From Synechocystis sp. PCC 7509 (GTDB lineage Bacteria; Cyanobacteriota; Cyanobacteriia; Cyanobacteriales; Chroococcidiopsidaceae), in NCBI RefSeq assembly GCF_000332075.2, contig NZ_ALVU02000001.1, forward strand, positions 992,001 to 1,056,000: a stretch of DNA of 64,000 nt, read 5' to 3'. Numbering within the stretch: position 1 is the stretch's first letter; the number at the start of each line of letters is the position of its first letter. A program made the position numbers and the translations under genes. The notes beneath the pieces are model-generated. The model was not told the origin of the DNA. It ran no database searches and was given only the letters and a program-made list of their open reading frames with translations. Shown here one piece after another: positions 13,134-61,457 of the stretch.

Positions 13134-13173
13134 ATAGATAAAATCGAAATTTTCATGAGAGGATTTTACATAA

Positions 13174-14007
13174 ATGGCTGACTCGCAGGAAATGAAACTT
13201 GCTATCCAATCTGTTATCAAAATAATGATGGATAAGGTGATGAATAGAGTGCTTAATACAGATCCTTTTATAAAGGAAAAATATCAAGCTGATAAACCTC
13301 TCTATGCAGCATTAATTCCTGATGAAATATTTAAGGGTTCGCATTTTGAAAGAAGATTTGTTACTTCATTTGGGAAGGCGTGGGAAACATTAGCTGTAGT
13401 AGCTGCAAAAGAAGGCTTAGGTTATGGAGTTGTGGGTCATAGTATCAGTGGAACAGTTAAAGAAGAAAGGCTTAGAAGAATTACACAAGTGTTAAATAAG
13501 CTAGAGCATCCAGAAAAAGGACGAAAGAGAATAAAACCGGATTGGAATGAAGAATTAGCCTTTATTTTAGAAGGTGGTGGAGAAGATATACCCGTAACTA
13601 TAGTGTGTGATGTTTACGCAGAGGATAGAGTAAATAATAAAAGGTATGCTTTCGAGCTTAAAGCGCCACTTCCTAACAGCGACCAAACTAAAGTTAGTAA
13701 GGAAAAAATTCTGAAACTCCGTAGCATGGAACCATTAAAAATTGATGGAGCCTATTATGCACTACTGTATAATCCTTATGGGCGTAAGGAAGATTATGCT
13801 TGGAGTTTCCCTGCCCGATGGTTCAACATGAGAGAAGATGAGGTCGTGCTTATAGGGAATGAGTTTTGGGAAAAAATAGGTGGTACAGGCACTTATCAAT
13901 CATTTATTGATGCTGTGAATGAGATAGGTAAAGAATACAAAGAGAAGATATATAGGGAATTTTTAGAGATTGAACCTCCATCTGATATTGACAAAGGAAA
14001 ACTTTAG
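13174..14007 (+). CDS. TdeIII family type II restriction endonuclease
   Basis: This 277-residue protein matches the TdeIII/MjaII family of type II endonucleases, which recognise GGNCC. The PD-(D/E)xK catalytic core is visible as Asp146 (VCDVYAEDR) and Glu161-x-Lys163 (FELKAP). Nearby family-like blocks are FKGSHFERRFVTSFGKAWE and DGAYYALLYNPYGRK. It lies directly after its cognate methyltransferase on the same strand. The gene looks full length with intact catalytic residues, so it could be active. The recognition site is inferred from the family and is not visible in the sequence. Confidence 0.87.
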   Translation: MADSQEMKLAIQSVIKIMMDKVMNRVLNTDPFIKEKYQADKPLYAALIPDEIFKGSHFERRFVTSFGKAWETLAVVAAKEGLGYGVVGHSISGTVKEERLRRITQVLNKLEHPEKGRKRIKPDWNEELAFILEGGGEDIPVTIVCDVYAEDRVNNKRYAFELKAPLPNSDQTKVSKEKILKLRSMEPLKIDGAYYALLYNPYGRKEDYAWSFPARWFNMREDEVVLIGNEFWEKIGGTGTYQSFIDAVNEIGKEYKEKIYREFLEIEPPSDIDKGKL

Positions 14008-22148: not shown

Positions 22149-22172
22149 AGTTTTAGTTAGGAATTTCGGAAA

Positions 22173-22317
22173 GGATTACAGTTGCGGGAGTTTTTATAAC
22201 TTCGATCCCCCCTAACCCCCCTTAAAAAGGGGGGAAAATAAAGATTTCTTTTTTAGGGTTTGGGGATTTGTTGTGTGTAAGTTCCAAGGATTGCAGTTGC
22301 GGGAGTTTTTATAACTT
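22173..22317. repeat. 30-bp direct repeat bracketing a GC-rich palindrome
   Basis: GGATTACAGTTGCGGGAG at 22173-22190, extending to 22202, recurs at 22288-22317 with one mismatch. The second copy is coding (the ndhD3 C-terminus) and the first lies between ndhD3 and cupA. Between the copies is a palindrome: CCCCCCTT (22216-22223), loop AAA, AAGGGGGG (22227-22234). The element type resembles the GATCCCCCC-type repeats seen between genes in many cyanobacteria. Confidence 0.8.
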
Positions 22318-23788: not shown

Positions 23789-23799
23789 AAAACCTTTTT

Positions 23800-25668
23800 C
23801 TAAAGTCCCAAATTAAAAACGTTGTTGTAAGCTGACCAGTGAGGAAAACTTAAGAAAGCGCCAATGATCCCAATTCCAATTAAAATAGTTAGCGCGTAAA
23901 ACTGAGATTGACCGGAAGTGCTGTACTTCAAGCTTTCTCCACCCAAAAGCGAAGCTAATCCCACCAAATTCACCGCGCCATCGACGATAAAACGGTCAAC
24001 CCAAGCGACAATTTTAGAAACTCTATCCACTGCAAACACAATAGTAAAGCGGTAAATATCGGGAGTGTAAAAGTCGTAAGCAAACAAGTTTTGCAGCGCT
24101 TTCGACGGTAGTTGTACGGGTTTGGGTAAAGCATTACCTAGATAAATTACGCCAGCTATAGTGCAGCCAAAGACGCTTGACAAAAACAGCAGTATGGCGA
24201 CATCTTTGTTCAAGTTTCCCCAGTTAGGTAGCAAAGATACGCTTTCTAAAACTAAAGGCAAATGTAGAGTAAAGCCTAGTAATAGCATCATGGGTAATAC
24301 TAACAGCCACATTGCTTCCGGCGATCGCACTGTCATCTGTTTTGGCTTACCACCAAAAATTAACGAAAATATCCTGACTAAACTAAAAGCCGTCAAAGCA
24401 TTGACAAGCAAAACTATTCCCACTAACCAAGGCTGAGTTATCCACAAAGTATCTGCTAAATTCAACAGCGCCCAAAAACTACCAAAAGGAGGACAGCCAA
24501 TTAAAGCCGCCGTACCCCCTAAAAATGCCAAAGCCGATATAGGACGACGCGACCACAACCCGCCCATTTGCGTCAAATCTTGGGTAATATTATTCCAAAT
24601 AATGCCCCCGGCGCTCATAATTAATAAACCCATTGCAACGGCATGAGTTAGAACTAATAACAACGCTGCATCATTTTGTCCCGTACCAACGGCAATAAAT
24701 ACTAAACCCATGTAAGCGCTAACAGAGTAAGATAGAGCGCGTTTGATATCAATTTGAGACGCTGCAATACAAGAAGCACCCACCGCCGTTACTGACCCAA
24801 TTAACACCAACGCAGACATCGTTATCGGCGACAAGCTTAAGATAGGTTCGAGCTTTATTAGTACCCAAGCCCCCGTTGCTACGACTACAGAATTGCGTAA
24901 TATCGTACTAGGAAGCGGGCCTTCCATTGCTTCATCTAGCCACAGATGCAAAGGAAACTGAGCGCATTTACCCATTGGCCCGGCAATTAATGCCAAACTA
25001 ATCAAAGTAATTACTTTCGGGTCTGGGTGCGCTGTCGCCGCCCAATCGCCTAATTCCCAATAGTTCCAAGTCCCGGTTAAGGATAATAAGGCAATTACTC
25101 CCATTAGCAATACCAAATCACCCACCCGCTTAGTTAAAAAGGCATCTCTAGCCCCCGTAACTACCAAAGGCTGACTAAACCATAGCCCAACTAAAAGGTA
25201 AGTTCCCAAAGTTAGTATTTCTAGAATTACATAGCTAAAAAACAAAGAGTTACATAAAGCTAAAGCACACATCCCACATTCAAACAGTGCCAAAAGCGCA
25301 TAAAATCGCGCCCACCCCCAGTCCATTTCCATGTACCCTACTGCATAAATCTGGGCAAGTAAATTCATCCCAGTTACGAGTAACATTGCGCCGACAGTGA
25401 TAGTCGAAATTTCTAGCGGTAAGGAAATATCTAAATTTGCAACTTGCAGCCAAGGGATAATTATTTGTTTTGCTGGTTGATGCCAAGTTGCTGGGATAGC
25501 AACTAAGCTATGCACAAAAGCAATAAATGTCATTAATAAATTGATGTAACCCGCAGGTCTTGGCCCCGTGTTCCGAATAATTCCCGGCGACCAAGGTATC
25601 GTCAAAACCGCACCAATTAAGGCATACAAAGGTACAGCCCAGATGGTTTGAAGAAAAAATTGCGCCAT
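23800..25668 (-). CDS. ndhF3: NDH-1 subunit F3 (NdhF3)
   Basis: This 622-residue, about 16-helix protein is the chain L/5-type proton pump of the NDH-1MS complex. Blocks such as FPLHLWLDEAMEGPLPSTIL and ASQIDIKRALSYSVSAYMGL define the family. The shortened HLWLDEAM...PS region, lacking the usual DAM-GPTPVSAL wording, fits the CO2-uptake F3/F4 branch. The open frame begins with TTG at 25677, but ATG 25668 (MAQFFLQT) is the likelier start. It is the first gene of the operon, with a 460-bp upstream region. Confidence 0.9.
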   Translation of the reverse strand: MAQFFLQTIWAVPLYALIGAVLTIPWSPGIIRNTGPRPAGYINLLMTFIAFVHSLVAIPATWHQPAKQIIIPWLQVANLDISLPLEISTITVGAMLLVTGMNLLAQIYAVGYMEMDWGWARFYALLALFECGMCALALCNSLFFSYVILEILTLGTYLLVGLWFSQPLVVTGARDAFLTKRVGDLVLLMGVIALLSLTGTWNYWELGDWAATAHPDPKVITLISLALIAGPMGKCAQFPLHLWLDEAMEGPLPSTILRNSVVVATGAWVLIKLEPILSLSPITMSALVLIGSVTAVGASCIAASQIDIKRALSYSVSAYMGLVFIAVGTGQNDAALLLVLTHAVAMGLLIMSAGGIIWNNITQDLTQMGGLWSRRPISALAFLGGTAALIGCPPFGSFWALLNLADTLWITQPWLVGIVLLVNALTAFSLVRIFSLIFGGKPKQMTVRSPEAMWLLVLPMMLLLGFTLHLPLVLESVSLLPNWGNLNKDVAILLFLSSVFGCTIAGVIYLGNALPKPVQLPSKALQNLFAYDFYTPDIYRFTIVFAVDRVSKIVAWVDRFIVDGAVNLVGLASLLGGESLKYSTSGQSQFYALTILIGIGIIGAFLSFPHWSAYNNVFNLGL

Positions 25669-26140
25669 CGGTATCAACTTTATATTGTTTTAAAACAAAT
25701 TAACTTTCTAGAACAAATTTGTGCTTGTTCCATGTAACTTTAAAAATCTTAAATCCAAACAAATTCATGCTCTTTTTTAAGATTTAAGTTAAGTTAAAGC
25801 TTACCTTATAATAGTTGCATAAGTAAATTATTAATATAGCTGAATAATCAATAAAAATAATTAACTTTACTTATGTAAACAAGCTAGTTATTAATTAAAT
25901 CAATGATTACCATTGATGGATTTTATAGAAATGTTATCGTCCAAAAAAGACACCGATAATTAAAGCCAAATTATTACAAGCCGTTATATGAAAGGAAATA
26001 AGCGCCTTTTGCCTCTAAAATCTAAATGTAAAAAACTACAATGTGACGTTTATAAGCCAGCAATTAGCAAAGTAAGTTGATAAATATAACGGATATATTT
26101 ATAAATATCGGCTTCCATCTATAGTAATGATTAAAATATC
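25669..26140. other. Long AT-rich upstream region of the ndhF3 operon
   Basis: This 470-bp AT-rich region lies between ndhF3 and the 3' end of the zur gene, both on the minus strand. It should hold the operon promoter and leader. I see one strong dyad (25899-25917, listed separately) and no ORF worth calling. Confidence 0.5.
25899..25917 (-). promoter_or_regulatory. Candidate LysR-type (NdhR/CcmR) operator dyad
   Basis: A perfect inverted repeat, ATCAATG-ATTAC-CATTGAT, lies about 230 bp upstream of ndhF3. The half-sites contain TCAATG, the core described for NdhR/CcmR sites at low-CO2-induced operons, although the spacing differs from the published N10 form. Its place before an operon known to be under NdhR control makes a regulatory role plausible. 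Confidence 0.45.
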
Positions 26141-29450: not shown

Positions 29451-30857
29451 TTAAGGATAGATATCTTTGACGAGAACAGTGCCACGAGCCGTGCCATTAC
29501 TCTTCCATAGCTCCCTTCCATAAGCTGGGGTATAGGCAGTAAAGTACAGTATGCCATTGACATTGGTTAGGTTATCTGAGAAAGAAGAATCATCATTACC
29601 AGAATTGATATTTTTGACAAGAACAGTGCCAGCAGCCGTGCCATTACTCTTCCATAGCTCCCATCTATAAGTTGGGGTAAAAACAGTAAAGTACAGTATG
29701 CCGTTGATATTAGTCAGATTATCTGAGAGAGAATAAGGTTCGCTAGGATAGATATTTTTGACAAGAACAGTGCCAGCAGCCGTGCCATTACTCTTCCATA
29801 GCTCCCTGCCATCAGCTGGGGTTAAGGCAATAAAGTACAGTATGCCGTTGACATTAGTCAAATTATCTGGTTGAGAATGATTGCCACCAGGAACGATATC
29901 CTTGACGATCACAGTACCAGCAGCCGTGCCATTACTTTTCCATAGCTCGTATCCATTGGCTAGGTTATGGTCAACAAAGTACAGCATTCCATTGATATTG
30001 GTTAGGTTATGCGGGTTAGAATAATTAATACCAGGAACGATACCCTTGACTCGAACAGTACCCACAGCCGTGCCATTACTCTTCCATAAATCGATTCCAT
30101 TAGTTAGGCTCTCGGCACTAAAGTATAGTGTGCCATTGACGTTAGTCAGGTTATCCGGGTAAGAATAAGCAGTACCAGGAACGATATCCTTGACGAGAAA
30201 AGTACCAGCAGCCGTGCCATTACTTTTCCATAGCTCCCATCCCGTAGCTGGGGTATAGGACTCAAAATACAGCGTGCCATTAACGTTAGTCAGTTTATTT
30301 GAGTAAGAGTAACCACCACCGGGAACGATATCCTTGACGAGAACAGTACCAATAGCCGTGCCATTACTCTTCCATAGCTCCCTTCCAGTTCCTGGTTTAT
30401 AGGCAACAAAGTATAAAAGGTTATTTATATTGGTCAGGTTAGATGGGGCAGAAAAAGCAACACCAGGAGCAATATCCTTAACGAGAACAGTGCCAGCAAC
30501 CGTACCATTGCTCTTCCATAGCTCAGTTCCAGTCACTGGGTTATAGGCAGTAAAATACAGTATGCCGTTGACATTGGTCAGGTTATTAGGGTTAGAACCA
30601 GTAGCTCCAGGAGTAATATCCTTGACGAGAACAGTGCCAGCAGCCGTACCATTACTCTTCCATAGCTCGTTTCCACTCGCAGGAGTATAGGAACTAAAGT
30701 AAACTGTACCATTGACATTAGTGAGGTTATTAGGGTTAGAACTGTTAGGGACTGCCTGTACTTGAGTAGATGTTTGCACTAATGTGCCTAGGATGACTCC
30801 ACAAATTAGCATCCCGCTACAAAACTTGGCATCACGCTTAAGATTTGGAAAACCCAT
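29451..30857 (-). CDS. Secreted ELWxxDGT-type repeat protein, nine repeats (copy A)
   Basis: This 468-residue protein starts with a signal peptide (LICGVILGTLVQTSTQVQA). Nine repeats of 47-49 residues follow, each shaped as NLTNVNGxLYF, ~8 variable residues, ELWKSNGTAAGTVLVKDI and a turn. This is the ELWxxDGT repeat family, predicted to form a beta-propeller or beta-rich solenoid at the cell surface. The last repeat stops abruptly at VKDIYP. No catalytic or anchoring domain is visible. It is a tandem paralogue of the gene at 31150, and homology continues past the stop. Confidence 0.85.
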   Translation of the reverse strand: MGFPNLKRDAKFCSGMLICGVILGTLVQTSTQVQAVPNSSNPNNLTNVNGTVYFSSYTPASGNELWKSNGTAAGTVLVKDITPGATGSNPNNLTNVNGILYFTAYNPVTGTELWKSNGTVAGTVLVKDIAPGVAFSAPSNLTNINNLLYFVAYKPGTGRELWKSNGTAIGTVLVKDIVPGGGYSYSNKLTNVNGTLYFESYTPATGWELWKSNGTAAGTFLVKDIVPGTAYSYPDNLTNVNGTLYFSAESLTNGIDLWKSNGTAVGTVRVKGIVPGINYSNPHNLTNINGMLYFVDHNLANGYELWKSNGTAAGTVIVKDIVPGGNHSQPDNLTNVNGILYFIALTPADGRELWKSNGTAAGTVLVKNIYPSEPYSLSDNLTNINGILYFTVFTPTYRWELWKSNGTAAGTVLVKNINSGNDDSSFSDNLTNVNGILYFTAYTPAYGRELWKSNGTARGTVLVKDIYP

Positions 30858-31149: not shown

Positions 31150-32565
31150 TTAGGGATAGATATCTTTGACGAGAACAGTGCCAGCAGTCGTACCATTACT
31201 CTTCCATAGCTCGTTTCCAACAATTGGTTTATAGACAGTAAAATACAGTGTGCCATTGACATTGGTCAGATTATCTGGGGAATAACCAACACCACCAGGA
31301 TTGATATCCTTGACCAGAACAGTGCCAAGAGTCGTGCCATTACTCTTCCATAGCTCGTTTCCATAAGTTGGGTTAAAGGCAACAAAGTACAATTTGCCAT
31401 TAACATTGCTTAGAGAAGACGGGTAAGAATAACTACCGCCAGGATAAATATCCTTGACCAGAACAGTGCCAGCAGCCGTGCCATTGCTCTTCCATAACTC
31501 CTCTCCAGTAGCTGAAGTTTTAGCACGAAAATATAGCGTGCCATTGACATTTGTCAGGTGTTCCGGGTCAGAATTACTAAAACTAGGAAAACCAGGATAG
31601 ATATCCTTGACCAGAACAGTGCCACGAGTCGTGCCATTACTCTTCCATAGCTCGTTTCCTGTATCTGGATGATTGGCACGAAAGTACAGTGTGCCATTGA
31701 TATTAATCAGTCTAGACGGGTTAGAATGCTCGGAGCCAGGATTGATATCCTTGACCAGAACAGTGCCCGCAGCAGTCCCATTGCTCTTCCATAGCTCGTT
31801 TCTATAAGCTAGGCTACTAGCACCAAAGTACAGAATCCCATTGATATTGGTCAGGCTATATGGGTTAGCATAAGGCGCACCAAGAAAGATATCCTTGACC
31901 AGAACAGTGCCAGCAGCAGTCCCATTGCTCTTCCATAGCTCCCTTCCAGTAGCTGGATTATAAGCCTCAAAGTACAGAAGGCCATTGACATTTGTCAGGT
32001 TCTGCGGGACTGAACCATAGTAACCAGGATTGATATCCTTGACGAGAACAGTACCAACAGCCGTGCCATTGGTCTTCCATAGCTCCCTTCCTCTATCTGG
32101 ATGATAGGCAACAAAGTATAGCGTGCCATTGACATTTGTCAGGTACTCTGGGTCAGAATCACTAAAACCAGGAATGATATCTTTAACTACAACAGTGCCA
32201 ACAGCCGTGCCATTGGTCTTCCATAGCTCCCTTCCAGTAGCGGAGGTATTGGCACTAAAGTACAGAAGTCCATTGACATTTGTCAGGTAAGATGGATAAG
32301 AATCAGCAGCACCAGGATTGATATCCTTAACCAGAACAGTGCCAACAGCGGTGCCATTACTCTTCCATAGCTCTTTTCCCTTTGCTGAGGTTGTGGCACT
32401 AAAGTACAGTGTGCCATTGAAATTTGTTAGGTTCTGCGGGTGAGAATCACGAGTGACGATTGCCTGGGCCTGGGTGAAGGTTTGCAGTAGTGTCACTAAT
32501 GTCACTCCACAAAATAGCATCCAGCTACAAAACTTGGCATCACGCTTAAGAGAAGATTGAATCAT
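31150..32565 (-). CDS. Secreted ELWxxDGT-type repeat protein, nine repeats (copy B)
   Basis: This protein has about 471 residues from ATG 32565 (MIQSSLKRDAKFCSWML). That start gives a signal peptide like copy A's; the open frame runs 45 codons further upstream without support. Nine repeats with the core ELWK(S/T)NGT and VKDI follow; the sixth carries a three-residue insertion (PGFPSFSNS). The end is VKDIYP, as in copy A. Probable surface or extracellular protein; function unknown. The nine-fold count in both copies suggests a closed or length-constrained fold. Confidence 0.85.
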   Translation of the reverse strand: MIQSSLKRDAKFCSWMLFCGVTLVTLLQTFTQAQAIVTRDSHPQNLTNFNGTLYFSATTSAKGKELWKSNGTAVGTVLVKDINPGAADSYPSYLTNVNGLLYFSANTSATGRELWKTNGTAVGTVVVKDIIPGFSDSDPEYLTNVNGTLYFVAYHPDRGRELWKTNGTAVGTVLVKDINPGYYGSVPQNLTNVNGLLYFEAYNPATGRELWKSNGTAAGTVLVKDIFLGAPYANPYSLTNINGILYFGASSLAYRNELWKSNGTAAGTVLVKDINPGSEHSNPSRLININGTLYFRANHPDTGNELWKSNGTTRGTVLVKDIYPGFPSFSNSDPEHLTNVNGTLYFRAKTSATGEELWKSNGTAAGTVLVKDIYPGGSYSYPSSLSNVNGKLYFVAFNPTYGNELWKSNGTTLGTVLVKDINPGGVGYSPDNLTNVNGTLYFTVYKPIVGNELWKSNGTTAGTVLVKDIYP

Positions 32566-32717
32566 AACCCTCTTGCCACATAGGAAATAAGGTCTTTGTC
32601 TTACATAATAAGTCCGTTTTAACCTGACCTTGCCTATTGTAATAAATGTTACTAAAGATATCAGTTGAGGAATTAATTCCAGTGCGACGTGATCGCACAA
32701 TAGACGACAGAATAATT

Positions 32718-33020: not shown

Positions 33021-36000
33021 TTGCAATGCGATAAAGAACAGAGAGTTTTATGTGTAGATTTATCGGTGTTTTTTATTAAGTCAATTAGAGATTTATTAGA
33101 TGTAGATAGTGTGGAAGTAATAAAAGATATATTATCCAGGGAAATTAACTATCTAAAATCAAAAAGTATTTTTGCTAATTTGGGTTTAGATACTAAAATA
33201 GGCTTGAATTTATCCCCAGATTTAGCGCACTATTTTAGCGCCTTTAAACGCGAGGATAAAGAAAGTGTCAAACTAATTCAAGCAGCTAGTTATACCCATA
33301 GCTTTTATGAATTTATGCGATCGCACAATCTTACTACCGACGATAACACACTGACCTTTAATGTAGTAGGATACAGCGATCGCGCTATCAATGCAATGTC
33401 TCTAAATCTGGATAACTTGCGCGTGTTAGAAACTTGTTCAACTATCTATAAGCAAAAGTTAAGCGATATACAAATCAACGATGCGCGTAAAAAAGTATTA
33501 AAGCTAATTCAACGCAATACGGCTAAAAGCTTTAATGAGGGTAAAGAATTTATTGCGAAACTTCTCAACGTTCCTGCGGGAATTACAACAGTAACCCATA
33601 CAGAACGAATAGAGGGCTTTCTCAACTCTCAGGGTAAAATTCCCCAAAAACACGCCGAACAACTGCACATTAGCCCAGAATTGACGCTCAGAGATGCTCA
33701 CGCCGAACTAATTAAACAGGCATTAATGTCTGAAGATGTTTACATATTTTTAACAGGTAATCCTGGAATTGGCAAGACTACCGCGATCGCAAATGTGCTA
33801 AAAACTCCAACTTATAGCGATGAGGGGTTTTTGTTTTTCTACGCCAGTCCCAGGACGCAAGTTAATTTAGATATTATTGAAAAATTTACTGATGAAGATA
33901 CCCAAACTTTATTTAACGACAAATTCCTGACAATTACTACTAACTCCGATTTAATTAAGAAGCATGGCGGACGCTGTACTGTAAATTACTTATCAGATAC
34001 ACGCGATACAGATTTTATCGAAAAAACTGTCCATTTTATTAATCAAAATAACCCTACCCAAGAGGATACAAACCCTAAGAAAAAATTAGCAATTACTAGC
34101 GAAGATACAATCCAATGTAGAGAACAAAAAAACCGAGGAGTTTTAGATAGTATTTGCGAAGCAATTTATACAGTTATTGAGAGCAATATATCCACTAACA
34201 TTTTAGCTACGGTTTCAATTCAGTCATTAAAAAAGACGAGAGGTGGTAAAGATACTCTTGAGCATTTTGAGAAAATCTTTAAAAGTGCCTATAACGAAAG
34301 AGAAGGTAAGGTTATTCCAGCAAAAATGCAGGGAATATCTCGCCAGATTAAACATTTATTTATCATGATAGATGAAATTACCGGAGACGATAGCGGTGTT
34401 GAGTTTTTAAGTCGAATTGGTGAACTTATAAATAAGTACAAATTAACCGATCCTCAACATGGCTTTAATGTCAAAGTAATCGTTGCTGATGCTTCTATAG
34501 TTAACAGTTCAATTATTGAACAACATCTTAAATCGTCATCGGTAGAACCAAATAAGATATTTTTTAGACAAGGGATAGAAAATTGTCCCCCTATAGCTAA
34601 AGATAGTTTTAATTTTAATAATTTTCCCGCCTCGGTTATCAATACAAATTCTTACCCTGCTAAAAGCTTAACCATCACTTACAAAGTAATAATTGAATCG
34701 TGCAAATACGTACAAACGGCTGAAATAGACAAGGGAAACGGGTTAAGAAGCCGATTGCAACAACAACTTATCGATGACATTTATAAGCTTTTAGCAAGTC
34801 CTGACTTTGAGCAAATAATTGTATATATTCAAGACAAACAGAGACTAGCTGAGTTAATTGAAAAGATTAGAAAAGATAAAGGAATTTTTCAATATCAGCA
34901 AGACTATATAGAGATTCATGCTGACCTTTCTGAGCAAAAAAAACAAGAGATAAAACAATATCAAAACTCAGTAAAAATAGTGTTTATGACAGCTTCAGCT
35001 AGTCGGGGTTTATCTTTTCCTAAAACCAAATACATATTAGTTGATGCACCGAGATTTGAAGTTGAAAAAAACTTGATGGAGATTATTCAGGTTATTTATA
35101 GAGGGAGAGGAAGTTATTTAGAAAATGGTGTGAAGCAAACTTTAGATAATACTGATAAAGAATTGATTTTCTACTTTTCTGAACGCTCGGTATATTACGA
35201 AGATCCCAAATTATCTACGGAAGATTTCGCCACGCAACGCCAACTATCTTTGCAAGAAAGCGTACTAAGTGTTTTAAATATTTTGCTAGTCTTAAAAACT
35301 TCAATAATGACTCGTATTACTGGATTTGGTCAGATAGGTAAAAACAATTTTATCATGATTCCTATAGGCGGAAAGTCCGTAACGGCTGCGGGACAAACTT
35401 TTAGTAGTACCATGAGTTCGCTAATAAATAAATTAAAAAAAGAATCGTCAAAACAGCAATTTAACCAGCAATTAAAAGAAGTGTACTCAACCTTAAAAAA
35501 TTTATTAAATAGGTCAGAGATTGTATTAAAAAATCCAGAAAGTTTCACAGACGAGCAAGTTTCTTACCTTTCTTTGCGAGAATCTCTAGCTAATAAATTT
35601 ATTAAATCTATCAACAAAAATTTTGCAGAGTTACTAGACTTTAAAGCAATTGAAGTAGGTTATGTTAGTGGAAGCCTATTAGTAATTCCTCTAGCGGGTA
35701 GATTGATTGAAGAAAAATATGAAATGCGAATGGAACAAGAAATACTTAAATATGCAAACAATGATTTCCTCAAAAAAATGTACGATATTAAACGCGCTCC
35801 TAGCTCTACAGAAAGTCTCAAATATGCGATAGATGAAGCAATAGAATTAGTTAAATTATTGCGAGATCAATCCGATAAAACCCAGAGACTTGAACAGTAC
35901 AGCCAACGTTTGGATCGATATTATGCTCTACCTTTATTTACTTTTCTCAGTAGCGAAGAAATTAAGAAATACTTGGCTAATGCTGAAGAAACAGAAGACA

Positions 36001-36212
36001 AAGGTTTTAAAAAGATTCTAACTCAATACCTCCAAACTCTTTACCCAATAGGTAATATTTTACCCATTGGTAATAAGTATTCAGATTTTCCTTTCATTGT
36101 TTTTACAAGCTATAGCTTAAATGAAATGAGAAATAAGATTTTTACAAATAATTATCTAATAAGTTCTAATGAATTGAATGTATTAAATTTAATTCTTGCT
36201 ACCGATGAGTAA
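33021..36212 (+). CDS. Very large helicase-like P-loop ATPase, function unknown
   Basis: The open frame is 1,063 residues from a TTG. Walker A is GNPGIGKTT at residues 246-254, Walker B is FIMIDEITGD near 451, and superfamily 2-like C-terminal motifs are TASASRGLSFP near 656 (motif V) and QVIYRGRG near 690 (motif VI, Arg finger). About 350 residues of unfamiliar, helical, Lys/Glu-rich sequence follow. The first ~200 residues match no domain I know. The true N-terminus probably lies upstream at 32718 but is frameshifted. The gene is AT-rich, and GCGATCGC occurs only in its first quarter. Its setting between duplicated genes suggests an accessory, possibly defence-related, protein. Confidence 0.75.
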   Translation: MQCDKEQRVLCVDLSVFFIKSIRDLLDVDSVEVIKDILSREINYLKSKSIFANLGLDTKIGLNLSPDLAHYFSAFKREDKESVKLIQAASYTHSFYEFMRSHNLTTDDNTLTFNVVGYSDRAINAMSLNLDNLRVLETCSTIYKQKLSDIQINDARKKVLKLIQRNTAKSFNEGKEFIAKLLNVPAGITTVTHTERIEGFLNSQGKIPQKHAEQLHISPELTLRDAHAELIKQALMSEDVYIFLTGNPGIGKTTAIANVLKTPTYSDEGFLFFYASPRTQVNLDIIEKFTDEDTQTLFNDKFLTITTNSDLIKKHGGRCTVNYLSDTRDTDFIEKTVHFINQNNPTQEDTNPKKKLAITSEDTIQCREQKNRGVLDSICEAIYTVIESNISTNILATVSIQSLKKTRGGKDTLEHFEKIFKSAYNEREGKVIPAKMQGISRQIKHLFIMIDEITGDDSGVEFLSRIGELINKYKLTDPQHGFNVKVIVADASIVNSSIIEQHLKSSSVEPNKIFFRQGIENCPPIAKDSFNFNNFPASVINTNSYPAKSLTITYKVIIESCKYVQTAEIDKGNGLRSRLQQQLIDDIYKLLASPDFEQIIVYIQDKQRLAELIEKIRKDKGIFQYQQDYIEIHADLSEQKKQEIKQYQNSVKIVFMTASASRGLSFPKTKYILVDAPRFEVEKNLMEIIQVIYRGRGSYLENGVKQTLDNTDKELIFYFSERSVYYEDPKLSTEDFATQRQLSLQESVLSVLNILLVLKTSIMTRITGFGQIGKNNFIMIPIGGKSVTAAGQTFSSTMSSLINKLKKESSKQQFNQQLKEVYSTLKNLLNRSEIVLKNPESFTDEQVSYLSLRESLANKFIKSINKNFAELLDFKAIEVGYVSGSLLVIPLAGRLIEEKYEMRMEQEILKYANNDFLKKMYDIKRAPSSTESLKYAIDEAIELVKLLRDQSDKTQRLEQYSQRLDRYYALPLFTFLSSEEIKKYLANAEETEDKGFKKILTQYLQTLYPIGNILPIGNKYSDFPFIVFTSYSLNEMRNKIFTNNYLISSNELNVLNLILATDE

Positions 36213-48471: not shown

Positions 48472-49242
48472 CTAAGCGGCGATCGCTCTGGTGGGGTTTC
48501 CTCGCAGCAATTCCATTAATTCATCTCGGTAATCATGGAATATAGAGTGGCGCTTGACTGTAACGTTGCGATCGGGTAATTTAATCGACATTTCCTTTTG
48601 TATTGTACCCGGACGAGTTGTTAAAGCATAAATTCGATTGGAGAGAAACACCGCTTCCTCTACATCGTGAGTAATCATAAAAATTGTTAAGTTGTTTTTT
48701 TCCCAAAGCTCTAACATGAATTGGTGCATAGATTCTTTTGTATGGACATCTAACGCCCCAAAAGGCTCATCCATTAACATTACTTTGGGTTCAGAAGCCA
48801 AAGCACGAGCGATCGCACAGCGTTGTTTCATCCCACCCGATAGCTCTTTGGGTAAGGATTTGGCAAAGTTTTCTAACCCTACAACTTTCAGATAATAGCT
48901 GGCTTTCTCGCGGCGCTCTTTTTTGGACAATCCTTGCAACTTCAGTCCAAACTCTGTATTTTTTTGAACGTTCATCCAAGGATAAAGCGTGTAGTGTTGA
49001 AATACCATCCCGCGATCGGGTCCTGGCCCTGTAACCTGTACGCCATCAATTTTAACTTCTCCAGTGGTGGGGCTATCTAATCCGGCAATTTGGCGCAACA
49101 AGGTAGATTTACCCGATCCTGATGCGCCTACAGCACAGATGAATTCACCTTGGGCGATCGTCATATTAATATCTTTTAATACGACTAAAGATCCTTGCTT
49201 AGTTTCAAAGTTTTTGTTTAATTCATTGACTTGTAGATACAT
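48472..49242 (-). CDS. ABC transporter ATPase of a guanidine-locus NitT/TauT-type importer
   Basis: This 256-residue ATPase has Walker A GASGSGKST, Q-loop GMVFQHYTLYPW, signature LSGGMKQRCAIARAL, Walker B VMLMDEPFGALD and H-loop MITHDVEEAVFLS. It belongs to the nitrate/taurine (NitT/TauT) import group. It closes the operon headed by gdmH, with the permease 40 bp upstream. By that context the likely substrate is guanidine; sequence alone cannot show it. Confidence 0.88.
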   Translation of the reverse strand: MYLQVNELNKNFETKQGSLVVLKDINMTIAQGEFICAVGASGSGKSTLLRQIAGLDSPTTGEVKIDGVQVTGPGPDRGMVFQHYTLYPWMNVQKNTEFGLKLQGLSKKERREKASYYLKVVGLENFAKSLPKELSGGMKQRCAIARALASEPKVMLMDEPFGALDVHTKESMHQFMLELWEKNNLTIFMITHDVEEAVFLSNRIYALTTRPGTIQKEMSIKLPDRNVTVKRHSIFHDYRDELMELLRGNPTRAIAA

Positions 49243-49282
49243 GATATGCCCCTGGTTATGTAGTAAATGCTCGAAAGTTGAT

Positions 49283-50128
49283 TTATCTTTTTTGACTTGT
49301 CCAGCTACAGGAAACTCTTAATAAATATTGAAATAGCAAGTCGAAAGTTAGCCCGATTACACCAATTACAATTAACCCCACAAAAATTTCATCGGTTCTC
49401 AAAAACCTCCCTGCTACGCTGATTCGCCGCCCTAATCCTTCGTTGGCGGCGATTAATTCTGATACAATTACCAATTGCCAAGCGGCGGCTAAGTTAATCC
49501 GACAAGCATCAATAATTCCTGGGATAACGTGGGGGAAAATTACCTGTAACAATGTCTGTATACGACTTCCACCCAAAGTATAGGTTGCCTCAATTAAGTC
49601 TTTGGGTACAAATTTGACTGTATCCATGACCATTAAAGAGTTGAAGAAAAATACGCCAATAAAGATCAAAGTGATTTTTGGTTCTTCGCCAATCCCCAAA
49701 TATAAAATTAGTAATGGAATAAAAGCCGGAGCAGGCATATAGCGAATTAAGCCAAATAGAGGCTCTAGTAAAGCTCTAATACTGGCAAAACTGCCCATCA
49801 ATACCCCTACAGGAATTGAAAAAATTACCGCCAGCGAAAACCCTACCCCCACTCGCCACAAACTCGCCACAGTGTCTTTTAATAAATCTCCCGTACCCCA
49901 CAAACGCCCGAATGCTTCTAAAACTTTTCCTGGGGAGGGCAAAAACTGCGGGTTTACATTGCCAAAAGTAGTTACTAACCACCACAGCAAAAGCGGTAAA
50001 GCAATAGAAGTAGTAATTAAGCCTGTATTTAAAGGCTTGGGGATATCTTCAGCAAGTCCCCAGAAAACCGTAGATTGGAGGCTTTTAGATTGTTTGGCAT
50101 TTCTCCGCATTGATTCGGTAGGACTCAT
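49283..50128 (-). CDS. ABC transporter permease of a guanidine-locus importer
   Basis: This permease has about 281 residues from ATG 50128 (MSPTESMRRNAKQ) and six or so membrane helices. The EAA loop appears as EATYTLGGSRIQTLLQVIFP. It is a TauC/SsuC-type permease. The open frame begins at 50197 inside the binding-protein gene, but ATG 50128 leaves a 22-nt spacer and is preferred. It should form a homodimer with the downstream ATPase. Confidence 0.88.
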   Translation of the reverse strand: MSPTESMRRNAKQSKSLQSTVFWGLAEDIPKPLNTGLITTSIALPLLLWWLVTTFGNVNPQFLPSPGKVLEAFGRLWGTGDLLKDTVASLWRVGVGFSLAVIFSIPVGVLMGSFASIRALLEPLFGLIRYMPAPAFIPLLILYLGIGEEPKITLIFIGVFFFNSLMVMDTVKFVPKDLIEATYTLGGSRIQTLLQVIFPHVIPGIIDACRINLAAAWQLVIVSELIAANEGLGRRISVAGRFLRTDEIFVGLIVIGVIGLTFDLLFQYLLRVSCSWTSQKR

Positions 50129-50150
50129 GGCTTTGAGGTGATAAGTGGAT

Positions 50151-51200
50151 TTATTTCTTAGCTTTTGCGGCGTAGGCTTTAATAAAGCGATCGTCAAATA
50201 GCTTACTAAGGTCTGGCTTTTGCTTTGCTAGTCCAACTTTGGTTAAAAACTCGCTCATTTCTGCCGCCGCAAAAGCCAGAGATGTTCTATCTTTGCCGGG
50301 AAGAAAGGCTTTGAGGTTTTCTTCAATGCTAAAAATGTGAGTTCCTTCGGCGTATTCTTTGTATTGGGCGACGCTCACCCCGGCTCGTTTTGCCATAATT
50401 GCGATCGCACTATCAGAATTTGCAGCTATATAATCTAAGGTTGCAAACCACGAATCGACTAGCGCCTGTACTTGCTCTGGATGCTCGGTAAGAAATTTGC
50501 GCGTTACTACCAAATGATCGGGAATCGCCCCCGGAAACTCTTTAGAACTAAATAATTCTTTGCTCCCAGGACGCTTAAGAGCTTGAGTTGTAAAGGGTGC
50601 AAATACTCCCACTGCATCTACTTGTCCTCCTACGAAGGCGGCGGAAGCTTTACCTGTTTCTAAAGGTACAAATTGAATATCTTGAGAACTTAAACCTGCT
50701 TTTTCCAGTCCCAATAACAATAAAAAGTGATCTACAGTTCCTTCTTCGGCGGCTACTTTTTTGCCTTTGAGGTCAGCAATCGAGTTAATGCCCTCGCGCA
50801 CAATGATTTTATCGTTGCCTGTAGAGTTGTCGTTTACTAACACAACTACTTGGTCTGCACCTCCAGAAACAGAGCTAATCGTATCGTTTAAAGTTTGACT
50901 ATTGGCGGTAATTTGTTGCGCGGCTAAGGTACTGATAGATTCTAAATACCCGTCAAACCATTTCAAGTCTACGGAGGCTTTATGTGTATCAAATATACCT
51001 CTATCCTGGGTTACTTGCCAAGGAATCCAACCGGGCCATGCGCTAAATCCTAAACTTGCCGTAGCTGCTACACTACCTTGAGAAGATGAAGTAGTATCGG
51101 CATCAGTTTTAATGTTGGCTGCTGGATTTGTACAACTAACTGTTAAAGTCAAGCCTGCTACAAATAGAGCAATGTATGTAAATAGCGATCGCAGTTTCAT
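50151..51200 (-). CDS. ABC substrate-binding lipoprotein of a guanidine-locus importer
   Basis: This 349-residue periplasmic binding protein of the NMT1/SsuA-TauA type has an N-terminal lipobox (LTLTVSC, lipidated at Cys23). The ligand-binding lobes include SLGFSAWPGWIPWQVTQDRG and ADLKGKKVAAEEGTVDHFLL. The operon begins with guanidine hydrolase, so I infer guanidine as ligand. The published Synechocystis locus has the same kind of importer genes next to its guanidine hydrolase. Confidence 0.88.
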   Translation of the reverse strand: MKLRSLFTYIALFVAGLTLTVSCTNPAANIKTDADTTSSSQGSVAATASLGFSAWPGWIPWQVTQDRGIFDTHKASVDLKWFDGYLESISTLAAQQITANSQTLNDTISSVSGGADQVVVLVNDNSTGNDKIIVREGINSIADLKGKKVAAEEGTVDHFLLLLGLEKAGLSSQDIQFVPLETGKASAAFVGGQVDAVGVFAPFTTQALKRPGSKELFSSKEFPGAIPDHLVVTRKFLTEHPEQVQALVDSWFATLDYIAANSDSAIAIMAKRAGVSVAQYKEYAEGTHIFSIEENLKAFLPGKDRTSLAFAAAEMSEFLTKVGLAKQKPDLSKLFDDRFIKAYAAKAKK

Positions 51201-51292
51201 TTCATTTTTTGTCAGTATTTTTTAAGGCTTAGTCTAATTTCATAGGAAATAGCAGATTACTTTGTCTGCTACTATTGCTACACAATTTTTTG

Positions 51293-51991
51293 TTAGCAAG
51301 GTTTTCCAACTAAGGTAGGTTTTATGATGATTTGCGACTTCACCCAATCTAACCAAGCTTCTAAACCTGCTCCAGTTTTGGCAGAAATAGCAATTATTTT
51401 GACGTGAGGATTCATTTGTCTAACATTTTCCTCAATGCGGTTAATATCTACGTCTAAATAAGGCGCTAGATCAATTTTTGTAATTAGTAAGCAATCTGCT
51501 TGTTGAAACATAATTGGATACTTGAGCGGTTTATCTTCTCCTTCAGTAATACTTAAAAGCGCAACTTTTAAGTGTTCCCCTACTTCAAATTCGGCAGGAC
51601 AAACTAAATTACCCACATTTTCTACTAACACCAAATCAAAATCTGTGGGGTTGTATTGATGTTCTAATTGATGAATCCCCCCCGCCACCATTCTTGAATC
51701 TAAGTGACAAGAACGCCCGGTATTAATCGCAATAACTGGAACATTATATTTCCGCAAACGTTCCGCGTCTAACTCTGTCGTCATATCCCCTTCAATAACA
51801 GCAATTTTGATTTCGCTGCTCAAAGCTTCTAGAGTTTGTTCTAATAGCACTGTTTTACCAGCGCCGGGACTACTCATAATATTTAAGCAAGTAATTCCCC
51901 ACTCATCAAAGCGATCGCGATTGCTGTCTGCTCCGGTTTGGTTAGCGTGAAGCAAATTAATCCCTAAAGCTGCGTCAAAAGTTTGGTGCAT
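51293..51991 (-). CDS. ghaB: HypB-like nickel-inserting GTPase (guanidine hydrolase accessory protein)
   Basis: This 232-residue SIMIBI GTPase has the P-loop [13 protein letters not shown], Asp in [15 protein letters not shown], and the guanine-specific TKIDLA. Metal-site residues at the dimer interface are Cys and His in GRSCHLDS. It resembles HypB, which loads nickel into [NiFe] hydrogenase, but no hydrogenase gene is near. It is sandwiched between guanidine hydrolase and its importer, as the accessory GhaB is in Synechocystis. It overlaps the ghaA stop by 17 nt. No His-rich nickel store is present at the N-terminus. Confidence 0.85.
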
Positions 51992-52343
51992 AATTTTCTA
52001 CATACTCAACTCGATCAATTTTTAATTCTCTTCCCGATCTAATATCATCCATCGGCGACTTGCACTGAGGACAAGCATATTGAATGCCGATTTCTGGGTG
52101 ATATTCTGCTTGGCATTGATGACAAAAAGCTACTAATGGCGTTTCTTGTATAACTAGCTTTACACCATTTAAAAATGTATTTTTAGTTTGCACTTCAAAG
52201 GCAAATTGCAAGCCTACAGGCTCTACACAAGTAAACTTACCAACAATTAAATGGATACAGGATATTTGCGGATTTTCTTTCTGACTTTCTTGCCAATCTT
52301 TGACGGTCAAAATTAGCGCCTTAGTCATGTCCGTTTCGTGCAT
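51975..52343 (-). CDS. ghaA: HypA-like nickel chaperone (guanidine hydrolase accessory protein)
   Basis: This 122-residue protein has the HypA pattern. The N-terminal Met-His-Glu ([10 protein letters not shown]) gives the nickel-binding His2. Two CxxC pairs (FCHQCQ and [11 protein letters not shown]) bind zinc. In the guanidine operon it is the counterpart of GhaA, which with GhaB activates nickel-dependent guanidine hydrolase. Its start overlaps the gdmH stop by one nucleotide, indicating translational coupling. A hydrogenase role is possible but unsupported here. Confidence 0.87.
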
Positions 52344-53548
52344 TAATTAGTCCACTCCTTAACTAATTCTGGTTGAGCGTAAGGATGAATATAGTCAGGT
52401 TTTTGTTTTCTTGGTAATTGTCCCGATACTACCAAATGTCCCATTGTGTCACAAATTACCCTGGCGGCTAATAATGCTGTCATGTCGCTAACATCATACG
52501 GTGGAGAAACTTCAACCACTTCCAAGCCACAAATAGGAGCGCGTTGGACAATTTTACCTAACATATATAAAGCTTCACGGGGTAATAAACCGCCGGGTTC
52601 GGGCCAGCCAGTACCAGGAACAAAACCCGCATCAATACAGTCAATATCAAAACTGATATAAACGCAATCTGTGCCGTCTAAAGCTCTTTCTAAAGCAAAG
52701 TCTACGGCGTAATCTAAACCTTTTTCAACAATGTCTGTAACTGTTAAGATATTGCAGGCTTTCTCTCGATGAAACTTTACGCCTTCGCGGGGAACTTGCC
52801 AACCACCTATTCCTAATTGAACTAAGTTTTTAGGTGGGGCATTTTTAATATTTGTGGCGTGAAACCAAGGACAAGTGTGCATCCTTTCGTCTAAATCTTT
52901 CTCTTGAGTGTCTACGTGGCGATCGAAGTGAATAATCCCAACTTTTTTGTCGCCTAAATGCCGACAAATACCGCGTACTGTAGGGTAGCCAATAGAATGA
53001 TCTCCCCCTAAAATAATTGGGAATGCGCCAGAGCTAAAAATGTGAGCAATTCCTTTAGAAATTTGGTCAAAAGACTTTTCATTATTAGCGGGAATTGTAA
53101 AAATATCGCCTACATCGCACAAAGTAATCTGTTCGCGCAAATCTACTCCTAATTCAAAACTATAGGGCGTATAAAGCGCTGAAATGCGGCGGATACCTTG
53201 AGGTCCGAAACGAGTACCGGGGCGATAAGTTGTGCCAGAATCATGAGGTACACCAACAATTGCTACATCAAATTCGCCAACTCTGCGGACATCCTCAATA
53301 TAAGGCGCTTTTAAAAAAGTATTGATTCCCGCATAGTGAGGTAGTTCACCACGAGAAAAAGTAGGAATAGAGCGATCGCCTATACTATCTGCTCCTTCTA
53401 ACCCAAATTCTAAACCCTTAGATACTTCTTGTTGCCAACCTGTTAACGGTAACTTTCTTTCACTCTCTAAAGCCCTTTCTGCCTCGCTAGGGGGTTGCTG
53501 GGGATGAGATTCTAAACTTTCTTCTAATGGGCGATCGCGTTCGGTCAT
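52343..53548 (-). CDS. gdmH: Nickel-dependent guanidine hydrolase (agmatinase-like)
   Basis: This 401-residue arginase/agmatinase-fold enzyme hydrolyses guanidine to urea and ammonia. The metal ligands are in GGDHSIGYPT, HFDRHVDT and FDIDCIDAGFVPGTGWPEPG. It has a ~50-residue N-terminal extension not found in ordinary agmatinases. The DRHVD box and the GTGWPEPGG wording resemble the guanidine hydrolase Sll1077 of Synechocystis. The upstream guanidine-I riboswitch and the downstream HypA/HypB-like genes make the substrate call strong. Older annotations call such proteins agmatinase (SpeB). Confidence 0.92.
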   Translation of the reverse strand: MTERDRPLEESLESHPQQPPSEAERALESERKLPLTGWQQEVSKGLEFGLEGADSIGDRSIPTFSRGELPHYAGINTFLKAPYIEDVRRVGEFDVAIVGVPHDSGTTYRPGTRFGPQGIRRISALYTPYSFELGVDLREQITLCDVGDIFTIPANNEKSFDQISKGIAHIFSSGAFPIILGGDHSIGYPTVRGICRHLGDKKVGIIHFDRHVDTQEKDLDERMHTCPWFHATNIKNAPPKNLVQLGIGGWQVPREGVKFHREKACNILTVTDIVEKGLDYAVDFALERALDGTDCVYISFDIDCIDAGFVPGTGWPEPGGLLPREALYMLGKIVQRAPICGLEVVEVSPPYDVSDMTALLAARVICDTMGHLVVSGQLPRKQKPDYIHPYAQPELVKEWTN

Positions 53549-53586
53549 TTTAACTGCTCCCTAGTATAAACTTGCATTCTGGCAAC

Positions 53587-53638
53587 AAAAAACCCAGGAG
53601 TCAACAACAGTTGCGTAACTGTTAATGTTTCTCCTGGG
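53587..53638 (-). terminator. Attenuator terminator of the guanidine-I riboswitch
   Basis: On the minus strand CCCAGGAG (53638-53631) can pair with CTCCTGGG (53600-53593), followed by a T run (TTTTTTG, down to 53587). A smaller nested stem AACAGTT/AACTGTT (53606-53623) lies between the arms. The CCCAGGAG arm is also part of the riboswitch 3' element, so ligand binding should prevent the terminator from forming. Confidence 0.85.
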
Positions 53639-53745
53639 CTTTTCCCCCACCGTGTAACTAATACTTATCAAGTATTAGTTGCTTCTCTTGGACCTGCCGC
53701 TTAAATTTCCTGCAAGGCGTAAAAATTTAAACCGGAACCCTAGAA
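53631..53745 (-). promoter_or_regulatory. Guanidine-I (ykkC) riboswitch
   Basis: The minus-strand transcript carries the three conserved blocks in order: CTAGGGTTCCG, GGTCCAAGAG and ACACGGTGGGGGAAAAGCCC then AGGAGA. These are the hallmarks of the guanidine-I riboswitch. An 11-bp variable hairpin (AACTAATACTT/AAGTATTAGTT, 53656-53680) separates the second and third blocks. It lies about 85 nt upstream of gdmH and should switch the operon on when guanidine is present. Confidence 0.93.
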
Positions 53746-53853
53746 GCTAATTAAGTTTTTGTTTTAGCTAGTCATCTAAACTATTACTATAGCCAGTGCT
53801 AATTGATAGTAATATCAAGATTTCCTAAATTGAAATGTATTTACAAATACAAA

Positions 53854-59783: not shown

Positions 59784-60217
59784 GTAATTCAATTGTACAA
59801 GTAGCGATCGCAATTCTCTACCAAAACGACAAATTTTTAATGCAATTGCGCGACGACATCCCCAACATAGTCTATCCCGGACACTGGGGTTTATTTGGCG
59901 GACACCTAGAACCCGGTGAAACTCCAGATATTGCCGTAAAACGAGAACTATTAGAAGAAATTAGTTATACGCCACCAAACTTAATTGAATTTGGCTGTTA
60001 TCCAGATGAAAAAGCTATTCGTTATATTTATTATGCGCCGCTAACCGTAGAACTAAATCAGTTAGTTTTACTTGAAGGTTGGGATATGGATTTTTTGACA
60101 ATTGATAATATAGAACAAGGTATATATTATTCACAAAAAGCTCAGGGTATTTATCCATTAGTTTCTACTGCTCAAAAAATTTTGTTAGATTTTATAGATA
60201 AAATAAGTAATGCTTAA
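59780..60217 (+). CDS. NUDIX hydrolase
   Basis: This 145-residue NUDIX protein carries a complete box at residues 40-62 (GGHLEPGETPDIAVKREL, then LEEI), with the Gly, Glu, Arg and Glu-Glu metal ligands. It should hydrolyse a nucleoside diphosphate linked to another group; the substrate is not evident. It overlaps the lipoprotein gene by 4 nt and the AAA gene by 8 nt. Confidence 0.9.
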   Translation: MSNSIVQVAIAILYQNDKFLMQLRDDIPNIVYPGHWGLFGGHLEPGETPDIAVKRELLEEISYTPPNLIEFGCYPDEKAIRYIYYAPLTVELNQLVLLEGWDMDFLTIDNIEQGIYYSQKAQGIYPLVSTAQKILLDFIDKISNA

Positions 60218-61457
60218 GAAACTCATACTCAAAAATTGGAAAAGCTATCGTTATGCTGAACTCTTTATTGACCCTCTAACCGTTCTTATTGGTACAAATG
60301 CTAGTGGAAAATCAAACGCCCTTGATGGGTTAGAATTTTTAAATAGAACTGCGTTAGGAAAAGATATTCCAGCAGCTTTGATAGGTGATGAAACGCTTTC
60401 TTCTATTCGAGGTGGTGTAGAATGGGCAGCATTTAAGCCGGAAAATCAATTTACATTAGAAGTATTAGTACAGGGCAACAATGACAGGGTAGACTACTTT
60501 TATAGCATTACTGTGGAAACTGAACCTCGCGTTCAACTTCTAGCTGAGTCTTTAGTAAGAATTACGAAAAGACCAAAAACAGATAAAAATCCTCATAAAA
60601 TTTCTTTGTTTCAAGCAGATAGTGACTCGCCAGATAATCCTAGTATAGTTGCACGGCTTTACAATACAAAGAAGGGTAAGCCCAAAGATGTAAGACGTTC
60701 TAATTCTATTCTAAGTCAGCTAACAGGATTGGCTTCTATTTCTCAAGATATTACTGAAGGACTTAACATAGTTTCCCAAGTTTTAAAAAATATTTTTATT
60801 CTCGATCCTATTCCTTCCAAAATGCGTTCCTTTTCACCTTTTTCCGATCGTATACTTAGCGATGCTTCTAATATTGCTGGTATATTAGCAGCTTTAGCAG
60901 AACCCGAAAAAAGTCAAGTGGAAGCAGAAATAACTAAATATGTTACAGATTTACCAGGACGAGATATTCAAAAAGTCTGGGCAGAACCAGTAGGTAGATT
61001 TAAGTATGATGCAATGCTATATTGTCAAGAGATGTGGGTAGAAAATAAAGAATCTACCCTTATAGATGCGCGGGGAATGTCTGATGGAACACTCAGATTT
61101 TTAGCAATTATTACAACACTATTAACAAGACCAGAAAATAGTCAAATAGTAATTGAAGAAGTAGACAACGGGCTTCACCCATCTCGTTCTGAGTTGCTAA
61201 TAAAAATGCTCCGAGAAATAGGAGAACGTAGGCAAATTGATATATTAATTACTACTCATAACCCAGCTTTACTAGATGCGTTAGGTTCAGAAATAGTCCC
61301 TTTTGTAGTGGTAGCGCACCGGGACAATGAAACGGGAGAAAGCAAATTAACGCTACTTGAAAATATTAATAATTTACCTAAACTGATGGCATCGGGAACC
61401 CTAGGTAAACTTACGTCTCAAGGTTCTCTTGAAAAAAGCCTTTCTAGTGTTAATTAG
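60210..61457 (+). CDS. AAA/ABC-type ATPase (RecF/OLD-like), partner of a PIN nuclease
   Basis: This 415-residue ATPase is of the AAA15/AAA21 (SMC-RecF-like) group. Walker A is GTNASGKSN (residues 28-36). The C-terminal half has the signature MSDGTLRF near 289, Walker B IVIEEVDNGLHPSR near 314, and the H-loop TTHNPALLDALG near 350. A helical insert lies between. No nuclease (TOPRIM) domain is fused. The next gene, 9 bp on, is a PIN nuclease, suggesting an ATPase-nuclease pair. The gene is AT-rich and has no GCGATCGC. Confidence 0.85.
   Translation: MLKKLILKNWKSYRYAELFIDPLTVLIGTNASGKSNALDGLEFLNRTALGKDIPAALIGDETLSSIRGGVEWAAFKPENQFTLEVLVQGNNDRVDYFYSITVETEPRVQLLAESLVRITKRPKTDKNPHKISLFQADSDSPDNPSIVARLYNTKKGKPKDVRRSNSILSQLTGLASISQDITEGLNIVSQVLKNIFILDPIPSKMRSFSPFSDRILSDASNIAGILAALAEPEKSQVEAEITKYVTDLPGRDIQKVWAEPVGRFKYDAMLYCQEMWVENKESTLIDARGMSDGTLRFLAIITTLLTRPENSQIVIEEVDNGLHPSRSELLIKMLREIGERRQIDILITTHNPALLDALGSEIVPFVVVAHRDNETGESKLTLLENINNLPKLMASGTLGKLTSQGSLEKSLSSVN

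Follow-up and report, generated by a model that had tools for sequence, protein, structure and literature searches.

The 64 kb window of Synechocystis sp. PCC 7509 DNA examined here (the whole stretch analysed) carries on its minus strand, at 53754-48472, what is very probably an operon for guanidine assimilation of the same kind as Synechocystis sll1077-1082, including an NtcA-dependent step of control and an exchanged importer. The operon type is already known (Wang 2021, PMC8390497; a 2025 review, PMC12186494; Palatinszky 2024, PMC11410670; PMC10119275; PMC8400943; published work is cited here from excerpts). The potentially new parts are the control in series and the exchange of the importer. 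An earlier note on this DNA had described a guanidine-I riboswitch, gdmH, ghaA, ghaB and a three-gene ATP-binding cassette (ABC) importer in one minus-strand run, and every one of these elements was found in that arrangement. The range that it gave, 48472-53745, is right in gene content; its upper end falls inside the aptamer, which begins at 53754, and the likely promoter elements at 53850-53809 lie beyond it. The features of the operon are as follows.

53837-53850, minus strand: NtcA-type box GTATTTGTAAATAC (GTAN8TAC), an exact pattern match
53809-53814, minus strand: probable -10 element TATTAC, 22 nucleotides (nt) past the NtcA-type box; its last base departs from TAN3T
53629-53754, minus strand: guanidine-I (ykkC) riboswitch aptamer (RF00442, 72.8 bits, cut-off 63)
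53587-53638, minus strand: intrinsic terminator (expression platform), whose 5' arm CCCAGGAG is also the aptamer 3' end
52343-53548, minus strand: gdmH, predicted nickel-dependent guanidine hydrolase, 401 amino acids (751.8 bits to PDB 7esr/7oi1)
51975-52343, minus strand: ghaA, HypA-type nickel chaperone, 122 amino acids (TIGR00100, 121.5 bits, cut-off 88.1); 1 nt in common with gdmH
51293-51991, minus strand: ghaB, HypB-type nickel GTPase, 232 amino acids (TIGR00073, 309.7 bits, cut-off 121.2); 17 nt overlap with ghaA
50151-51200, minus strand: importer substrate-binding protein (class I), 349 amino acids, probable lipoprotein (SsuA_fam, 226.8 bits, cut-off 163.5); 92 nt gap after ghaB
49283-50128, minus strand: importer permease (PF00528); the open reading frame opens at TTG 50197
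48472-49242, minus strand: importer ATPase (PF00005); 40 nt gap after the permease

The close packing claimed by the earlier note is borne out by overlaps of 1 and 17 nt and by gaps of 22-92 nt if the permease begins at ATG 50128. This start, which leaves a gap of 22 nt, is more likely than TTG 50197, which would give an overlap of 47 nt. The G+C content of the operon (0.39 to 0.43) is near that of its flanks (0.40 to 0.45) and thus gives no sign of recent foreign DNA. The next gene downstream encodes a PrxQ-type peroxiredoxin.

The hydrolase is a predicted GdmH-type guanidine hydrolase. Its nearest solved relatives are 7esr/7oi1 ('Probable agmatinase 2'; 751.8 bits), of which we take 7esr to be Sll1077, and 9fek ('Putative agmatinase 2'; 577.1 bits), presumably the guanidinase of Nitrospira inopinata; the next relative scores 166.2 bits. 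It is identical to 7esr at 316 of 386 aligned residues (82%). A quick tree of 33 rows comprised the window protein, 7esr, 16 gdmH proteins and 15 agmatinase/arginase-like proteins, the latter from 14 loci of same-family genomes plus the second copy of the window genome, which has two arginase-family genes. The earlier note had named clustering with agmatinases as the outcome that would speak against gdmH; instead, the window protein, 7esr and the 16 gdmH proteins form one group (support 99), separate from the other 15. With several branch lengths at saturation (near 10), the tree reads as a grouping and not as a measure of distance. Midpoint rooting puts two of the agmatinase/arginase-like rows, L086 and L087, closer to the gdmH side; both sit on very long branches.

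Thr97 and Trp305 (Sll1077 numbering) have been named for guanidine specificity (PMC11410670). The window protein has T107 and W315 at these positions, and both residues occur in 81 of 81 gdmH rows, made up of the window and 80 loci that are the best 80 of 569 confirmed relatives and hence the nearest relatives only. The tryptophan discriminates, being replaced by T in 15 of 15 agmatinase/arginase-like rows, whereas the threonine does not. It is extremely improbable that the gene encodes a true agmatinase or arginase in an operon for arginine or polyamine breakdown: although TIGR01230 is passed (182.6 bits, cut-off 174.3) and T107 is common to 13 of the 15 agmatinase/arginase-like rows, the guanidine-I riboswitch precedes the gene, a distinct agmatinase-like gene lies elsewhere in the genome (C1:4148164), and we rejected the agmatinase reading on the grouping with 7esr and on W315. 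One of the 81 rows has D in place of the metal-site residue H211, which counts against the overall reading of the operon.

The two rows on long branches, L086 (genome G012) and L087 (genome G011), represent a further arginase-family type that scores 317 bits to PF00491 and carries T where Sll1077 has Trp305. Their genomes lack a HypA match, and neither gene has a guanidine-I riboswitch nearby.

The two genes that follow gdmH would supply its nickel. In the window genome (4.9 Mb, 4 contigs, listed as 100% complete), ghaA is the sole PF01155 (HypA) match and ghaB the only HypB match over the cut-off, of which two relatives fall short. A search of this genome for a NiFe hydrogenase large subunit found none, which leaves a HypA/HypB pair without a detected hydrogenase to serve; we therefore rejected a hydrogenase role of the pair here. 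Gene presence in the 80 loci was scored at a minimum of 40% identity and 70% length, some misses being due to contig ends. By this measure ghaA is present in 75 loci and ghaB in 72; the two occur together in 72, and in order after gdmH in 71. It is very unlikely that GhaA and GhaB are leftover hydrogenase maturation genes or urease helpers instead of GdmH helpers. They do pass the hypA and hypB models, and the genome encodes a further nickel enzyme, urease (one alpha subunit, with an adjoining urease beta-like open reading frame identified by reading), but the absence of any detected NiFe hydrogenase, the overlap of gdmH, ghaA and ghaB, and their conserved order all argue for service to GdmH, and according to a review GdmH activity depends on the helpers (PMC12186494). 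With no NiFe hydrogenase detected, this genome offers a setting in which to study the nickel helpers on GdmH and urease alone.

Two of the 80 loci, L009 and L019, lie on contigs titled Tatlockia and Candidatus Gracilibacteria. Their operons are nested among cyanobacterial ones; both contigs probably come from cyanobacteria and were misbinned.

Run against the guanidine-I covariance model, as the earlier note had proposed, the RNA upstream of gdmH passes: it matches RF00442 at 53754-53629 on the minus strand with 72.8 bits (gathering cut-off 63, E 5.2e-11, model positions 1-107). This is the only Rfam match in the window at gathering cut-offs and the one guanidine-I match in the whole genome. 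The 3' end of the aptamer, CCCAGGAG, doubles as the 5' arm of a strong terminator with six T behind it (53638-53587), and the 61 nt containing this terminator fold with -26.0 kcal/mol. Such an overlap of aptamer and terminator is the anatomy of a predicted ON switch. The riboswitch is present in 69 of the 80 loci, 60 found by pattern and 9 by Rfam; five of the 60 were run against Rfam and all five passed. By a strict rule, an overlapping terminator occurs in 21 of 61 leaders, compared with 1.0 on average and at most 4 when the downstream sequence is shuffled.

Two observations count against generalizing this switch. The strict terminator rule holds in 21 of the 61 leaders only, and the claim of a shared expression platform is limited to those. 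At gathering cut-offs, Rfam finds no riboswitch in L056, L077 and nine further loci (L009 is cut at the contig end). Consensus scans for sigma-70 promoters and terminators gave counts close to those in shuffles and were left unused; their loop limit of 8 was too small for the terminator of the window.

NtcA-activated promoters follow the consensus GTAN8TAC, about 22 nt, TAN3T. The window genome has an NtcA gene (385.7 bits), and the exact GTAN8TAC box at 53837-53850 lies 82 nt upstream of the aptamer. We compared 60 leaders over the 250 nt in front of the aptamer: that of the window and those of the 59 loci, out of 80, in which the pattern had located a riboswitch and the sequence extended that far upstream. 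GTAN8TAC is present in 46 of them, against a mean of 2.44 and a maximum of 7 in 200 dinucleotide shuffles and against 2.6 of 59 when 250-mers are drawn at random from these loci; because the leaders come from related loci, these counts are not convertible to a probability. Fifteen control patterns occur in 0 to 10 of the 60 leaders, the 10 belonging to GTAN7TAC. The inner eight bases and the positions of the boxes vary, and of 13 order labels, counting 'unknown' as one, 11 include leaders with a box. A TA follows exactly 22 nt after the box in 39 of the 46 leaders.

Part of the evidence runs the other way. An exact box is missing in 14 of the 60 leaders, including 7 of 10 Leptolyngbyales (present in 3 of 10), and TA is also frequent at +28 (22 of 46). 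Strict TAN3T at 20-24 nt occurs in only 14 of the 60 leaders, and TATTAC in the window violates it, though the box is exact and the spacing is 22. We consequently regard strict TAN3T as a weak test of an NtcA promoter and TA at +22 as a strong one.

The boxes could also be chance matches or serve the divergent gene (Npun_F0494 family), as the box of the window stands just before the probable ATG (53854) of that gene and the 14 leaders lack it. The counts in shuffles, random 250-mers and control patterns make this improbable, as does the finding that 40 of 48 leaders keep the box after removal of the window, of L003 and of 10 loci that adjoin an Npun gene. Among leaders read apart, moreover, the box is present in those of the gdmH-less importers L132, L134 and L135 and in L062, with none in L133 or in either L040 leader.

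In Synechocystis, excess ammonium represses sll1077-1082 (PMC10094980) and nitrogen loss induces sll1082, there listed as nitrate nrtD (PMC12638213), according to the excerpts used; these reports would fit NtcA control without proving it. The part of the literature covered here names no NtcA site before the operon; Funck 2022, Itzenhauser 2025 and Giner-Lamia 2017 lay outside this scope and could report NtcA control or the importer substrate. Box and riboswitch in series predict an AND gate in which nitrogen hunger would start transcription and guanidine would let it continue. A conserved NtcA box that would place nitrogen control in series with the riboswitch matters for the use of the riboswitch as a tool.

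The importer half of the operon has its own history. Among the 80 loci, the binding protein is present in 54 and permease and ATPase in 53 each; six-gene sets occur in 50, with order and strand kept in 47 of these (exceptions L056, L062 and L077). A tree of 51 concatenated importers resolves three groups, I (18, with the window), II (25) and III (8). In a larger tree of 60 rows, I and III hold and II is no longer one clade; both are quick trees with Shimodaira-Hasegawa-type approximate likelihood ratio (SH-aLRT) support only. When mapped onto the gdmH+ghaA+ghaB tree built from these 51 rows, class I requires seven changes, five of them forced by starred branches, and holding class I together there is rejected (approximately unbiased test, p-AU 1.3e-11). 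This conflict between the two trees points to the importer as an exchangeable module. The riboswitch accompanies every class (I, 15 of 17 loci; II, 22 of 25; III, 8 of 8).

The presumed exchange can be followed at the site of the window. Aliterella atlantica CENA595 (L005) has a gdmH 95% identical to that of the window, yet its importer is of class II, at 66-68%. Its neighbours are those of the window, Npun_F0494 and cobQ on one side and PrxQ on the other. The window and L004 have a class I importer between the same neighbours, the same-genus genome G001 has an importer identical to that of the window, and in G016 (L134) the cobQ-Npun site holds a riboswitch and importer without gdmH. From this we infer that the importer cassette was exchanged in the lineage of the window, with the hydrolase-helper half and the neighbouring genes left in place. 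A search for repeats marking the exchange gave only one 23-nt pair, which lies inside genes and was not useful. In plasmid records, gdmH relatives occur on 11 (E up to 1e-60; 53-66% identical, none cyanobacterial by name) and binding protein matches on 21 (E up to 1e-30), the best being 45.5% on a Chondrocystis plasmid.

In genome G002, the cobQ/Npun/PrxQ site (L136; G002:C6:56000-66000) holds a decayed operon copy with fragments of gdmH, permease and ATPase and a riboswitch below the cut-off. A further guanidine operon copy lies on contig 37 of this genome.

Genetic linkage suggests that the ABC importer takes up guanidine. In G010, a class I importer (L132) immediately follows a guanidine-I riboswitch of its own, without an intervening gdmH, and a second guanidine-I riboswitch (L133) is followed by UAAP1, UAAP2 and a urea-carboxylase-type enzyme, which we take to be a guanidine carboxylase set. 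In G011 and G012, importer and riboswitch are side by side by coordinates, and the G011 importer groups with that of G010. These three genomes contain no HypA match, and none of the arginase-family genes fetched from them is of GdmH type (one G011 gene was left out). In G013, the gdmH operon (L138) includes a class II importer, and a class I importer directly follows a separate riboswitch (L135), again with no gdmH in between; G014 and G015 resemble this genome by coordinates. In L040, a second riboswitch stands between ghaB and an importer that is class I by identity (75-79%; outside the trees). In L062, the genes right after the riboswitch are those of the importer. Importers behind their own guanidine-I riboswitch without gdmH link this importer lineage to guanidine independently of gdmH. 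They are natural evidence for guanidine and permit a direct comparison of importer types.

The importer might still carry nitrate, sulfonate, taurine, urea or another guanidino compound and merely ride in the operon. Family models point to sulfonate, taurine or nitrate, importer lineages are exchanged, and 26 of the 80 loci are without a binding protein passing the filters (some at contig ends). Against these points stand the class I importers behind their own riboswitches in G010 and G013 (and, by coordinates, in G011, G012, G014 and G015), the second riboswitch before the L040 importer, and the binding proteins themselves. Across 55 of these, 92 positions, Cys23 among them, are conserved in at least 96%, and class I differs from the rest at two fixed positions, conservatively (L040 counted with the rest). 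The importer genes of Synechocystis also rise in guanidine-producing strains (PMC8390497). Together, these observations make another substrate unlikely and favour guanidine.

The earlier note had also foreseen misleading automatic labels, and NCBIfam models indeed assign agmatinase (TIGR01230) to the hydrolase, hypA and hypB to the helpers and 'aliphatic sulfonate' (SsuA_fam) to the binding protein. For permease and ATPase, no NCBIfam cut-off was passed among the rows shown; SaoA, taurine and nitrate models match the ATPase, all below their cut-offs. The gdmH relatives in plasmid records are named 'agmatinase family protein', and sll1082 is listed as 'nitrate (nrtD)' in a 2025 paper (PMC12638213). 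Labels of agmatinase, hydrogenase maturation and sulfonate transport would hide the guanidine reading.

Elsewhere in the window, a methyltransferase (PADLOC type II methyltransferase, 332 bits) followed by a relative of type II restriction enzymes (110 bits) at 11934-14007 (plus strand) is likely a type II restriction-modification pair. A CO2 uptake cluster at 20859-25677 (minus strand) comprises the CO2 hydration protein ChpXY and two NDH-1 antiporter-like subunits. Two adjoining ELWxxDGT repeat proteins with nine matched stretches each are encoded at 31150-32700 and 29451-30857 (minus strand). An open frame of 1063 amino acids with a TTG start at 33021-36212 (plus strand) has no Pfam, NCBIfam or PADLOC match at the limits used, and an AAA ATPase at 60210-61457 (plus strand) matches the PADLOC candidate PDC-M07A (612 bits).

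In the working that we propose, nitrogen shortage would lead NtcA to activate the operon promoter. Without guanidine, most transcripts would end at the terminator whose 5' arm is the aptamer 3' end; guanidine held by the aptamer would allow read-through, as is known for this riboswitch class. The ABC importer would then take up guanidinium, and GdmH, loaded with nickel by GhaA and GhaB, would convert guanidine to urea and ammonia, a reaction in print for Sll1077. Urease would split the resulting urea, and guanidine could thus serve the organism as a nitrogen source. More generally, it seems rather likely that cyanobacterial guanidine use consists of exchangeable modules behind a double lock, an NtcA promoter and a guanidine-I terminator switch in series. 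Within this scheme, the hydrolase-helper module and importers of several lineages would be combined, separated or swapped in place, or coupled to the carboxylase pathway instead.

The carboxylase set of G010 (L133) has a guanidine-I riboswitch like the window, and its genome also has a class I importer (L132); in place of the nickel hydrolase of the window, it has a urea-carboxylase-type enzyme with UAAP1 and UAAP2. The guanidinase of Nitrospira inopinata, assuming that it is 9fek, is of GdmH type like the window protein (577.1 bits). It is likewise described as under guanidine-I control but, unlike the window gene, lies near an amino acid-polyamine-organocation (APC) permease with no nickel helpers or ABC genes nearby, according to the available part of PMC11410670. 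Synechocystis sp. PCC 6803 sll1077-sll1082 has, by its printed descriptions, the same six genes, order and riboswitch class as the window (PMC8390497, PMC10094980); the NtcA box and the importer exchange seen in the window do not appear in the excerpts of these descriptions. The same six genes with a ykkC leader are reported for the Limnospira indica PCC 8005 cassette (PMC8400943) and the marine picocyanobacterial cluster (PMC10119275). The picocyanobacterial clusters mostly have a Rieske protein gene downstream (PMC10119275), where the window has the gene for the PrxQ-type peroxiredoxin.

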